NCBI GenBank assembly: GCA_026988125.1 | Contig: JALSLU010000147.1 | Coordinates: 1 to 34,870 of the forward strand | Reading direction: 5' to 3' | DNA: 34,870 bases | DNA from: Sulfurospirillum sp. | GTDB lineage: Bacteria; Campylobacterota; Campylobacteria; Campylobacterales; Sulfurospirillaceae | In this document: one piece after another, positions 3,950 to 8,263 of the stretch | Layout of the letters: every line of letters begins with the position of its first letter | Numbering within the stretch: position 1 is the stretch's first letter | Program-made: the position numbers and the translations under genes | The notes under the pieces: model-generated | The model's database searches: none | What the model was told of the DNA's origin: nothing | Seen by the model: the letters and a program-made list of their open reading frames with translations, nothing else

Positions 3950-4546
3950 ATGTTTACAATAAAAGAGCAGTATGAAATTGAAATTGAGGTAAAAAAATCT
4001 ACTTTTATATCACATTTAGTAACTATTTGTAATTTTGAATCTTTATACATAGAGTTAAAAAAGATTCATCCAAAAGCTAACCACATTGTGTGGGCTAAAA
4101 GATACTTAAATGAGTACAATCAAGTAGTGGAAAATTGTAGTGATGATGGGGAACCAAAAGGAACATCAGGACCTCCTATTTTAAATGTTATGAGAGGTTT
4201 TGAACTTATAGAGTGTGGATTGCTTGTTGTTAGATATTTTGGTGGAATTAAGTTGGGAACTGGTGGGTTGGTTAGAGCCTATGGAAGCAGTGCTAAAGAG
4301 GTTATAGCCAATGCTAAGTTGGTTGAGTATGTAAAAAAGGAGAAACTTGATTTTTTTACAATTTATAGCATATGCGACAGATTTGAGCATTTTATAAAGA
4401 AAGAGGGTTTGGAAATTATAAAAAAAGAGTATCTAGCCGATGGGGTAGAGTGGAGTTTAAGGTTGAGTGAAGTTGAAAAATCTAAATTTTTAGACTTTGC
4501 AACCTCTTATAAAAGAGGTGTTTTTAAATTATTAGTGGAACAATAA
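3950..4546 (+). CDS. YigZ/IMPACT-family protein
   Basis: About 198 residues from the chosen start. The N-terminal IMPACT domain is clear: KSTFISHL near the start, HIVWAKRY, the SDDGEPKGTSGPPIL motif and VVRYFGGIKLGTGGLVRAYG. The C-terminal ~70 residues match the usual second, ferredoxin-like domain. The bacterial members are of unsettled biochemical function; the eukaryotic homologue IMPACT acts on the GCN2/GCN1 translation-control pathway. The open frame extends upstream to an ATG at 3884, but that would overlap the divergent gene and lacks a ribosome site; ATG 3950 has GGGAGTG just upstream and gives the normal family N terminus. The 3' end overlaps pgpA tail to tail by 23 bases. Confidence 0.87.
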   Translation: MFTIKEQYEIEIEVKKSTFISHLVTICNFESLYIELKKIHPKANHIVWAKRYLNEYNQVVENCSDDGEPKGTSGPPILNVMRGFELIECGLLVVRYFGGIKLGTGGLVRAYGSSAKEVIANAKLVEYVKKEKLDFFTIYSICDRFEHFIKKEGLEIIKKEYLADGVEWSLRLSEVEKSKFLDFATSYKRGVFKLLVEQ

Positions 4547-4994
4547 ACTCAATATAAATTTTCCAAGATCCAGCACTACATATCCCTGCAAACATACCAG
4601 CAAGCAAGTCATCTCCAACAACTCCAAGTCCTCCTTTTACATCTCTATCCACCCTGCCAATTATTGATGGTTTATATATGTCAAATGCTCTAAAGTAGAT
4701 AAAACTTAATATAATTTGAAAAGGGTTTGCTGAAGCAATACAGAGTGCTAACCATTGACCAACTACTTCATCTATGACTATGCTTTTATCATCATGAGTG
4801 TTGGTATCTTTTTCATACCTATTAATCTCTTTTATCGCTACAACGCTTATGAGTATGGTTAGTAGGAATAGAGTATCTATTGGAAAATAATTTAAAATTA
4901 CTAAGGCTAGCAAAAGTGCGGCAAAACTTCCAACAGTTCCAGGTGCTTTTGGAGATAAGCCTGTATAAAAAAATGTTAAAAATATTTTTCTCAT
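4524..4994 (-). CDS. pgpA: Phosphatidylglycerophosphatase A
   Basis: Dephosphorylates phosphatidylglycerophosphate to phosphatidylglycerol in the inner membrane. The 156-residue protein has the PgpA signatures: SPKAPGTVGS near the N terminus, IVIDEVVGQWLAL (~71-83), FRAFDIYKP (~99) and the GLGVVGDDLLAGM active-site segment (~122). It contains several membrane helices. It is the last gene of the minus-strand cluster ispDF, regulator, Sat-like, pgpA, starting 8 bases after the Sat-like stop codon. I remember the same order in C. jejuni (Cj1607-Cj1610). Confidence 0.9.
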   Translation of the reverse strand: MRKIFLTFFYTGLSPKAPGTVGSFAALLLALVILNYFPIDTLFLLTILISVVAIKEINRYEKDTNTHDDKSIVIDEVVGQWLALCIASANPFQIILSFIYFRAFDIYKPSIIGRVDRDVKGGLGVVGDDLLAGMFAGICSAGSWKIYIEFIVPLII

Positions 4995-5002
4995 CAGAGC
5001 TC

Positions 5003-6199
5003 CTAAGTTAGTGACATTGTTTGGTGCAGATTCATAAGCTCAATGTAAAAATCCTTCTCATTATGACTCTCTAAAAGTCCCAAATTTGGAAAGATATTAT
5101 CGTATATCATTTGAATATTTTTAAACCTATTTGGGAACATTTCACTAAGAAGTATTGCAGATATATCTTTTCTAACTAAAACAGCTGGTGGTAGTATGCC
5201 CGCTTTTAAAATCTCCATAAGTGCTAGGGAGTTATATTTTATGTGGTGATGTTGACCGTGTGGACATGTATTTGTGCTTACTAAAGTTCTACATTCATTA
5301 CAGTAAACAAACTCTGAAATTATTTCAACTTCTATGTTTAAAGTTTTATATTTATCTAAGATAGACTTCATTTCATTTTTATCAAAATACATTCCAATGC
5401 CACTATGATTTTGACTTAGTACTAGTTTATTACAACCAAAATTGTATGCACATATACTATCTAGAACAGCATTGTTATATCCTGCAAATATGTAGGTATT
5501 TTCAAAAGGTACGATGACAACTTTATTTTTTGGAAGGTAGTTATCTGCAAAATATTGTAAAGTTTTTAAACGAAGTTCATACGAGATTATATCCTCATTG
5601 TATGGTTTTAGCAAAAACACGACAAGTAGATCAGTCTTTTCAAGGGTAACCCTTATGATTCTCTCATGTGCTCTATGAAATGGTTTTGCACTCATCATTA
5701 CCGAAGCTATCTTTTTAGCATTGATCTTCTTTTTGGCTTTTTTTATGATTTTTTTTGTATTTTTTATGTCATCAAAATCTAATTCATACTCTCCACTTAA
5801 AGCATAATCTCCCAATCTTTTTAAAAATAGTTGAATTTCAGGATTTGAAGTATCATAAAGACCAAAAATTTGCTCTATTCTTCTTTTTTTATCAATTTTG
5901 AACACTTCTTCAACAACTATAGTTCCCTTAACTTTTCCATCAACAACAAAATCTAGCACCTCCCCTTTTTTAGTTGTTGTTAAAACTCTCTCATTTTTTT
6001 TACCAAATGGTGCAATTATAAATGGAAAAGGAAATGGAACTCCTTTATAGTAACCTGTTTTATCTACCTCCATTGCCTCTTCTTTTCCCATAAGTCCAGT
6101 AACAGGTGATAAAATACCCTCTTTTGCCAAAGCAAGGGTTGCGAGTGCTTGCTTATCAATAAAAATTTTTCTATTAGTGTTTCTTTTTTGTAATTCCAT
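5003..6199 (-). CDS. ATP sulfurylase (Sat) family protein, probably non-catalytic
   Basis: The 398-residue protein aligns along its length with sulfate adenylyltransferase: N-terminal PUA-like part (1-~150), nucleotidyltransferase core, and the zinc motif C300-x2-C303 with TCPH (311-314). Key residues are altered. The sulfate/ATP motif QxRNPxHRAH reads MSAKPFHRAH (169-178): the HxxH is kept but Q, R and N are lost. The GRDHAG motif reads SQNHSG (262-267). The SGTxVR segment reads NSLALM (323-328). Sulfate activation is therefore doubtful; nucleotide or ligand binding may remain. Its start lies 26 bases inside the 3' end of the atypical response regulator gene, so the two are translationally coupled, and pgpA follows after 8 bases. 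Databases may label it sat. A divergent substrate or a sensory/scaffold role are alternatives; none is shown. Confidence 0.85.
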   Translation of the reverse strand: MELQKRNTNRKIFIDKQALATLALAKEGILSPVTGLMGKEEAMEVDKTGYYKGVPFPFPFIIAPFGKKNERVLTTTKKGEVLDFVVDGKVKGTIVVEEVFKIDKKRRIEQIFGLYDTSNPEIQLFLKRLGDYALSGEYELDFDDIKNTKKIIKKAKKKINAKKIASVMMSAKPFHRAHERIIRVTLEKTDLLVVFLLKPYNEDIISYELRLKTLQYFADNYLPKNKVVIVPFENTYIFAGYNNAVLDSICAYNFGCNKLVLSQNHSGIGMYFDKNEMKSILDKYKTLNIEVEIISEFVYCNECRTLVSTNTCPHGQHHHIKYNSLALMEILKAGILPPAVLVRKDISAILLSEMFPNRFKNIQMIYDNIFPNLGLLESHNEKDFYIELMNLHQTMSLT

Positions 6200-7067
6200 A
6201 CTTTTTCCTTTTTTCCCATAAACTTTTTCTTGAGATTCCTAGTTTTTTGGATAGCTCTGTATCTGGAAACTTATTTTGAAAATTTGAGATTATGTACTTT
6301 ACATAATCATCAATGCTAAGTATATCTCCTCTATCAAAAACTTTATTTTGTGTAGAAATTTCAATTTCATCTACAATGTCTTGTTCTTCATTTATATCTG
6401 TTGTGGATATAATGGCTCTTCTATCTACAAGTAGATTTAAAATTTTAGTTTTCTCACTCTTTTTGATATTTTGTAAATTTATCAAATACATTAGTTCTTC
6501 TTCAGGTGTTTTAATGATTTTTTCAATTGCATTTTCATTAGAGAGTGAAATAAATGTAAAAGGTTGGTTAATTTGAACTGAGTAGTGAAACATTATCGCA
6601 TCAGCATGCTTTTGAAAATTTGTTTTTAAAAGCACAGGTAGTTTAGTTTTCAAACTTATGGGTTGCAAATCACTACTTTCAAAAAGATTCTCTACATAAT
6701 CTTTATATGTTTTGTTTTCTCTTTTTAGAGCATTAAACTCTTTTAAATGTTGAAGTTTTCTTATGAGCTCCTCTATCATAAATGGTTTTTGAATATAGTC
6801 ATTTGCACCAGCTTTTATAGGGTTCGATACTGTATCATTGCTAATGTATGAAATCATTAAAATAATTATAGATGATTTGTACTTTTCAATTACTGGGTAA
6901 AAATTTTGTCCAGAAATATTTGTCGATAGCAACACAGCATCATATCTTTCATCTCGTATGGCATCTTTTACTGAGGCCGCAATTTTACAGGTATACCCAA
7001 TTTCTGTTAATTTTGAAGATATACTCTGTGCTAGGTATATCTCATTTTCCACTATTAAAATCTTCAT
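6174..7067 (-). CDS. Atypical orphan response regulator, HP1021/CemR (Cj1608) type
   Basis: 297 residues: receiver-like domain (1-~110), a shortened middle region, and a C-terminal Fis-type helix-turn-helix (~270-291, PDTELSKKLGISRKSLW). The phosphoacceptor Asp is Ser (S48 in LLSTNISG) and the acidic pair is E7/N8, while Lys94 (QKP) and S73 are kept, so phosphorylation is unlikely. The middle part reads like a collapsed NtrC AAA+ domain: ~143-175 aligns with the Walker A region and ~192-225 with Walker B, but the P-loop, catalytic acids and GAFTGA are absent. Helicobacter HP1021 and Campylobacter Cj1608 (CemR) are orphan regulators of this kind, reported to bind oriC and control energy metabolism and stress genes; HP1021 is described as redox-responsive. 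Only one cysteine (C27) is present here. The position between ispDF and the Sat-like gene matches C. jejuni. Confidence 0.88.
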   Translation of the reverse strand: MKILIVENEIYLAQSISSKLTEIGYTCKIAASVKDAIRDERYDAVLLSTNISGQNFYPVIEKYKSSIIILMISYISNDTVSNPIKAGANDYIQKPFMIEELIRKLQHLKEFNALKRENKTYKDYVENLFESSDLQPISLKTKLPVLLKTNFQKHADAIMFHYSVQINQPFTFISLSNENAIEKIIKTPEEELMYLINLQNIKKSEKTKILNLLVDRRAIISTTDINEEQDIVDEIEISTQNKVFDRGDILSIDDYVKYIISNFQNKFPDTELSKKLGISRKSLWEKRKKYGITKKKH

Positions 7068-7099: not shown

Positions 7100-8263
7100 C
7101 TAAATTTTTTTCCAATTAATATATTTTAATGTTACTATAGCATTAACCCCAACTCCCTCTTCTCTTCCAATAAAGCCTAATTTTTCTGTTGTTGTTGCTT
7201 TTATGTTAACCTTTATGGGTTCAATTTCGAGTAGTGATGCCAATTTAAATCTCATTTTACTCTTATATGGAGAGAGTTTTGGTGATTGGGCTAAAATTGT
7301 TAAATCACAATTCATAATTTCATATCCAACTTTTTTAGTAAATTCTACCACCTCTTTTAATAGTTTTTTAGAGTCAATATTTTTAAATCTTTCATCACTA
7401 TCAGGGAATAGCTCTCCAATGTCTCCGGCACCTATTCCTCCCAAAATAGCATCTATTAGTGCATGTATGGCTACATCCCCGTCAGAGTGAGCTTTAAATC
7501 CTCTATTATCCTCTATCTTTACTCCTGCTAAAAACATATCTTTATCTTTACAAAATGGGTGCACATCAAATCCAAAACCTACAAAACTATCCGATACAGG
7601 AGCTTCAAAAGTATATAAAAGTTCTAAATCTTCTAAAGTCGTTAGCTTGTTGGCTCTTTTATCTCCTTTTATATATTTGATGCTTCCATCAATACTCTTT
7701 ATGGCACTACTATCATCTGTAAAAATTTTTGTTTGATTTAGTGCTTTTTTTAGTACTTTGGTTTTTGAAAGTTGAGGTGTTTGTATTAGCTTTATTTTTT
7801 CTCTATCTAGTGTTTCATTTTCATATACTGTTGTATCGTGTACACTCAAATAAGGTACAACTATATCTGCATCACCTTTGGCTTTGATTATTCTATCTAG
7901 CATGTCTTTTGGAATGTCAACTCTTGCTATATCACTAACAAGTACATATTCTGACTCTATTTTCAAAAGAGCATTTTTTAATGACTCTTGTCTGCTATGA
8001 CCCCCTTTTATAAATTCATACTCATCTGTGTGCAGTTTCATATACTCTATTTCATCTTTTGAAGAGACTATTACAACTTTTTTAAAATTATAATTTTCTG
8101 ATAAACTCTTAGTCACATAAAGCCATAGAGGAGTAGTTTGAATTCTTAGCCATTGCTTTTTAACACTCATCTTAAATCTACTAGATGAACCTGCACCCAA
8201 CATAATAAGTGATAAATCGGGCAAATTTTGTCCTTTTTTCTGAAGTGTTACGATATTATACAT
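7100..8263 (-). CDS. ispDF: Bifunctional IspD/IspF (MEP cytidylyltransferase / MEcPP synthase)
   Basis: Carries out two steps of the methylerythritol phosphate isoprenoid pathway. The N-terminal ~210 residues are IspD (LGAGSSSRFK nucleotide-binding loop, KKQWL), the C-terminal ~160 are IspF (FGFDVHPF metal site, HSDGDVAIHALIDAILG, GDIGELFPDSD). The fusion is typical of Campylobacterota and alphaproteobacteria. At 387 residues it has normal length. The ATG at 8263 gives about 15 residues before the first strand; a slightly later start cannot be excluded. It heads the minus-strand cluster and is divergent from mrp over 84 bases. The atypical regulator follows after 32 bases. Confidence 0.93.
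   Translation of the reverse strand: MYNIVTLQKKGQNLPDLSLIMLGAGSSSRFKMSVKKQWLRIQTTPLWLYVTKSLSENYNFKKVVIVSSKDEIEYMKLHTDEYEFIKGGHSRQESLKNALLKIESEYVLVSDIARVDIPKDMLDRIIKAKGDADIVVPYLSVHDTTVYENETLDREKIKLIQTPQLSKTKVLKKALNQTKIFTDDSSAIKSIDGSIKYIKGDKRANKLTTLEDLELLYTFEAPVSDSFVGFGFDVHPFCKDKDMFLAGVKIEDNRGFKAHSDGDVAIHALIDAILGGIGAGDIGELFPDSDERFKNIDSKKLLKEVVEFTKKVGYEIMNCDLTILAQSPKLSPYKSKMRFKLASLLEIEPIKVNIKATTTEKLGFIGREEGVGVNAIVTLKYINWKKI

Follow-up and report, generated by a model that had tools for sequence, protein, structure and literature searches.

The window analysed here is a stretch of 34,870 nucleotides from Sulfurospirillum sp., and it contains a gene for an ATP sulfurylase (Sat) homologue, called Sat-like below, on its minus strand. 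The strand had not been specified in the initial annotation; the plus strand of 5003-6199 is full of stops. The gene belongs to a cluster, ispDF-CemR-Sat-like-pgpA, whose order is kept almost throughout the Campylobacterota sampled, and pgpA follows the Sat-like gene after 8 bases in the window and after a median of 11 bases across loci. The features, all on the minus strand, are as follows.

7100..8263, minus: ispDF, first gene of the cluster (NF006899 above cut-off; synteny kept)
6174..7067, minus: CemR, an atypical response regulator of the HP1021/Cj1608 type (PF00072; present in 293 of 298 genomes)
6174..6199, minus: overlap of the regulator end and the Sat-like start, with the ATG embedded in the regulator codons Tyr-Gly
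5003..6199, minus: Sat-like (Cj1609-type) coding sequence, 398 aa (PF01747, E = 7e-55; PUA_2, PF14306, E = 2.5e-13)
5663..5695, minus: degenerate QxRN/HxxH segment, residues 169-179 (MSAKPFHRAHE), with the sulfate Gln and Arg lost and HxxH and Glu kept
5399..5416, minus: degenerate GRDHAG loop, residues 262-267 (SQNHSG), from alignment with Sats
5234..5302, minus: zinc site and family-specific invariant motif, residues 300-322 (CNECRTLVSTNTCPHGQHHHIKY), from the family alignment of 80 members
5216..5233, minus: degenerate SGTxxR (PPi) segment, residues 323-328 (NSLALM), from alignment with Sats
5006..5113, minus: C-terminal tail not shared with canonical Sats, residues 363-398 (invariant at G374 and Y385; F384 in 79/80)
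4524..4994, minus: pgpA, phosphatidylglycerophosphatase A, last gene of the cluster (PF04608, E = 5e-41; synteny)

Fold and family of the Sat-like protein

The AlphaFold model of the Sat-like protein, for which 63 aligned relatives were the input, had a mean pLDDT of 90.1. When this model was searched with Foldseek, the top 33 PDB matches were ATP-sulfurylase chains, bifunctional ones included, the closest having TM-scores of 0.72-0.76, and ATP sulfurylases were also the sole matches in a phmmer search against the PDB. Homo-oligomeric Sats (EC 2.7.7.4; PDB 8a8d from Methanothermococcus, 1v47 from Thermus and 4dnx from Allochromatium) have in common with it the PUA-like domain, the Rossmann domain and the zinc-bearing domain III, together with HxxH and the three-Cys/one-His zinc site. 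However, identity to these enzymes is 20-22%, QxRN, most of GRDH and SGTxxR are missing, and CPHGxHHHxxY, PP and a C-terminal tail have been gained. The loose Pfam cut-off for PF01747 was passed, whereas the curated NCBIfam cut-offs were not reached (NF003166, 167 bits versus 387; TIGR00339, 118 bits versus 323).

Matches to the window protein were found in 242 of the 298 Campylobacterota genomes; after removal of one canonical Sat (G122) and three weak matches outside PF01747, 238 genomes carry the Sat-like family. In a maximum-likelihood tree of 35 family members and 11 canonical Sats, the two groups fell on opposite sides of one branch with support of 100/100. We take the family to be that of Cj1609, on the gene order reported for C. 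jejuni and on prior knowledge. The comparison with the Cj1609-type family that the initial annotation had proposed proved to be the right one: the window gene is an ordinary member of this ‘sulfate adenylyltransferase’ family of Campylobacterota, having CxxCx8CPHGxHHH, PP-x4-R-x3-S, the C-terminal tail and the same operon with CemR, and only S262 and M328 are local variants. The motif sequence of a Sulfurospirillum genome (L157) is nearly identical to that of genomes of the window's own family.

Between near relatives dN/dS was ∼0.02-0.13, many of the pairs having a high or saturated dS, and this range, together with the presence of the family in 238/298 genomes, agrees with the earlier claim that the gene is under selection as a fold. 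The motif loss is not a matter of local decay. Judged from such sequence comparisons, the Sat-like protein is a Campylobacterota-specific ATP sulfurylase paralogue under strong purifying selection. A DNA pattern for CPHGxHHH, searched in 84,980 genomes, gave 53 matches, of which 19 belong to the family, all in Campylobacterota, and the rest are chance matches; the pattern used GC-leaning codons, so that AT-rich relatives outside Campylobacterota could escape it. No family member was found in phages, and among plasmid records one, from Sulfurovum, carries the whole operon. This record (Sulfurovum mangrovi, NZ_CP087125.1) is a linear 395-kb sequence typed as plasmid, and it may be a piece of chromosome. 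One member from a Campylobacteraceae genome (L043, G211) has 511 aa, a long N-terminal region of low similarity replacing the usual PUA-like domain.

Active-site residues and the sulfate-activation label

According to work on the Allochromatium Sat, the sulfate oxygens are held by Gln199, Arg201 and Ala299, the alpha-phosphate by Thr200, Arg201 and Asn202, and the ribose by Gly295, Arg296 and His298, and Arg365 of SGTxxR shifts into the PPi site; that study describes strict conservation of the RNP and GRD loops across Sats, whatever their metabolic type (PMC3779200). Alignment of the window protein with solved Sats confirmed the three motif replacements read from the sequence in the initial annotation, namely QTRN to M169 S170 A171 K172, GRDHAG to S262QNHSG267 and SGTxxR to N323SLALM328, although S262 and M328 in part set this protein apart from its relatives, position 262 being G in 75/80 members and position 328 being L in 39/80. 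The retained features were also read correctly: H175 and H178 of HxxH and the zinc ligands C300, C303, C312 and H314 are in place. An intact motif elsewhere in the protein was looked for, and a Q-x-R-N string does occur at residues 4-7, which the alignment puts outside the active site; it lies in a disordered N-terminus (pLDDT <50) and is missing from the family consensus.

The loss extends through the family. The sulfate Gln and sulfate Arg, where the window protein has M169 and A171, are canonical in 0/80 members and in 11/11 canonical Sats, which bears out the claimed loss of the sulfate site. Since all 80 relatives are without both residues and all 11 canonical Sats have them, the motif loss is far beyond chance. 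In the GRDHAG loop, Arg is found in 7/80 members and Asp in none, Asp being present in 11/11 canonical Sats, and the PPi Arg is kept in 4/80 members versus 11/11. By comparison with the Allochromatium enzyme, the family has lost the sulfate-holding residues, part of the alpha-phosphate-holding residues and the PPi Arg, and gained a new invariant zinc/His motif and a tail. The remainder of the site is kept to differing degrees: H178 in 79/80, E179 in 80/80, R176 in 79/80 and the ribose His in 69/80, and 14/80 members have N or T in place of the first HxxH His. Losses of the first His and of the ribose His (11/80) are found largely in Helicobacter-group members, in some of which the ribose loop is lost; in four of them (L042, L047, L069 and L081) the GRDH-type loop is gone altogether (e.g. 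VPQG-MNLS) and the zinc/His motif is kept. The initial annotation suggested that the protein could bind a nucleotide or a sulfur ligand; for a nucleotide, such binding is compatible with the fact that most members keep the ribose-contact His and the HxxH second His, but the ribose loop is gone from some of the Helicobacter group.

Conservation is highest elsewhere in the protein. Alignment A1 has 16 invariant columns, G136, E179 and 14 in the last 100 residues (C300, C303, C312, P313, H314, G315, H317, G334, P337, P338, R343, S347, G374 and Y385). The zinc segment, CxxCx8CPHGxHHHxxY, holds three histidines beyond the ordinary zinc site, and C300, C303, C312, P313, H314, G315 and H317 are found in 80/80 members, H318 in 78/80, H319 in 75/80 and Y322 in 78/80; a second conserved segment is GxxPPx4RxxxS. 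As the invariant positions lie near the C-terminus and the HxxH and ribose histidines vary, the most tightly held part of the protein is not the old adenylyl-transfer site. The invariant His motif, the C-terminal tail and the locked pairing with CemR are the strongest features of the gene, and none of them was mentioned in the initial annotation.

What the lost residues are known to do, and the fact that every member has lost them, make it almost certain that the Sat-like protein does not make APS. In the host genome (98.6% complete), it is the only PF01747 protein, the second, canonical sat that had been suggested for a search was not there, and neither a PAPS-reductase/CysD-type (PF01507) nor an APS-kinase (PF01583) protein was found. 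The label ‘sulfate adenylyltransferase’ is wrong for this host, which lacks another Sat, an APS kinase and a PAPS-reductase/CysD-type gene, just as had been predicted for automatic annotation. Moreover, four genomes of genus g14 have a canonical Sat alongside a member of the Sat-like family, so the two are kept for different jobs. Very probably the function of the Sat-like protein is other than sulfate activation. That members of the family are functional ATP sulfurylases whose active site is merely atypical is very hard to believe: the fold, HxxH and the zinc site are kept and the proteins are so named in database records and published papers, but the equivalents of Gln199, Arg201 and Arg365 are missing in 80, 80 and 76 of 80 members, true Sats are described as never varying in the RNP and GRD loops, a canonical enzyme coexists in the g14 genomes and the host has no downstream enzymes.

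In genome papers on Sulfurimonas (PMC4584964) and on an aquifer epsilonproteobacterium (PMC4674564), sulfate activation was inferred from an orphan sat, and the missing partner genes were remarked on. We infer that these sat genes belong to the Sat-like family, as the family is the only match in the related genomes sampled, and this would resolve the orphan-sat puzzle in both reconstructions, which the wrong label would already have misled. The canonical sat genes of g14 (L033-L036) and of G122 (L032) lie directly upstream of a pyruvate-kinase-like gene (MKKxIxTxGPSL...), an arrangement also seen in a C. jejuni capsule locus (PMC2993937), and in L032 and L033 an APS-kinase-like gene precedes sat; such loci are probably sulfated-polysaccharide modules.

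Proposed coupling to the orphan regulator CemR

CemR (Cj1608, HP1021, Abu0127) is an orphan regulator that controls energy conversion according to oxygen, its signal perception has been called enigmatic, and cj1608 deletion mutants are viable (PMC11334517). The gene that adjoins and overlaps the Sat-like gene of the window is its orthologue. The two genes overlap in 93/99 cases, and the Sat-like ATG occupies the same site inside the CemR coding end in 93/97 adjacent loci. At this site the CemR Tyr codon is TAT in 93/96, and the residue after Tyr varies (YG, YD, YE), with codons that all begin with G; the ATG stays constant. In genomes without the Sat-like gene, the CemR positions are LG, LE, LD or YN in 9/13. 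This is the pattern expected if an embedded start codon were under selection.

All 238 genomes with the Sat-like gene have CemR, the gene was never found without it, and the 5 genomes without CemR are all without the Sat-like gene. These absences include family f6 and G141, one species of an f3 genus that otherwise has both genes, and there were apparently at least two separate losses of the pair; linkage alone could explain such co-loss. In the other direction, 55 genomes (Arcobacteraceae and the H. pylori group) have CemR alone, and since CemR works there without it, the Sat-like protein is not a universal requirement. Among the six operon pairs, rate covariation was highest between Sat-like and CemR (partial r 0.57, 0.44-0.70, 59 operons), the values for Sat-like with ispDF and pgpA being 0.32 and -0.09. 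Physical linkage may produce part of the covariation and of the co-distribution.

In two f7 genomes the Sat-like gene lies outside the operon, beside and divergent from queH (L061 6000-8424; L062 6000-8326), and this speaks against partnership with CemR. The relocated gene is followed by a small lipoprotein gene, and cemR and pgpA stay together elsewhere. Among the openly accessible papers searched, none reports that the motifs are lost or connects Cj1609 with CemR, and no published account was found in which the Sat-like protein counts as a component of the HP1021/CemR system.

Possible roles of the Sat-like protein

Our best guess, with a probability of about 0.45, is that the Sat-like protein is a sulfate-dead, co-translated Zn/His partner of CemR. 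CemR and the Sat-like protein would be translated as a coupled pair, the Sat-like protein would bind CemR, probably via its tail or its zinc/His face, and the groove of the former active site would sense a metal, redox or adenylate state that is then reported to CemR, the kinase-less response regulator that adjusts energy metabolism to oxygen. Taken together, working with CemR, binding it and reporting from the groove can be proposed only tentatively, at somewhat less than even odds. Coupling, dependency and covariation argue with moderate strength for action with CemR, and the sensing is suggested, weakly, by the zinc/His motif and by what is left of the nucleotide groove. If the protein is the partner of CemR, the question of how CemR senses oxygen would become directly testable. 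It is a more speculative and rather unlikely extension that, across the phylum, an ATP sulfurylase was converted into the signal-input partner that the orphan CemR otherwise lacks, and that the lineages losing the Sat-like protein (the H. pylori group and Arcobacteraceae) moved sensing into CemR. A gain of cysteines by CemR once the partner was lost was not counted, the means (4.4 vs 2.4) coming from about three clades with overlapping ranges.

The chief difficulty is essentiality. A TraDIS study lists Cj1609 among the core-essential genes of C. jejuni and C. coli; in C. lari and C. hyointestinalis, the two further species it tested, the gene is core without being essential (PMC10077673). An essential Cj1609 beside a non-essential cj1608 is not predicted for a pure CemR partner. 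The essentiality in C. jejuni might come from a mis-set or toxic unpartnered CemR, from a second, enzymatic role or from polarity on pgpA. The same difference counts in favour of the main rival reading, which is possible if somewhat doubtful: an enzyme with a new substrate, in which the Rossmann domain would bind a nucleotide by way of the HxxH second His, the following Glu and the ribose His, the zinc/His motif, adjacent to the old PPi site, would give new catalytic groups, and the pathway would be independent of CemR, the operon being a convenience. The near-complete retention of R176, H178 and E179, and of the ribose His in most members, fits such an enzyme, as does the position of the invariant motif in the zinc segment that in Sat connects the adenine-binding strand with the PPi-binding helix (PMC3779200). 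However, replacement of the first HxxH His in 14 members and loss of the ribose His in 11 are unusual in a site that uses ATP, no new partner enzyme was seen in the genomes, and the genes for thiamine (ThiG), queuosine (QueH) and N-glycosylation (STT3) are distributed differently from the Sat-like gene. Links to ThiG and STT3 were rejected on this mismatch, and the link to QueH, suggested by the Sat-like genes beside queH in G134 and G044, was rejected because queH is present in 64/64 genomes with or without the Sat-like gene. A role in membrane lipid synthesis with PgpA, or an essentiality that arises only from insertions silencing pgpA downstream, is improbable; the short gap and the conserved order would agree with it, but there is no rate covariation with pgpA, and pgpA remains in genomes without the Sat-like gene.

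The gene belongs to the core of most Campylobacterota and has been reported as essential in C. jejuni and C. coli, yet its annotated function cannot, in all likelihood, be right. Among 23 mutations of an aerotolerant C. coli line obtained by aerobic passage, one is A290V in a gene named sat (PMC5366326); if that sat is the Cj1609 orthologue, for which it is a candidate, the substitution lies in the zinc loop.
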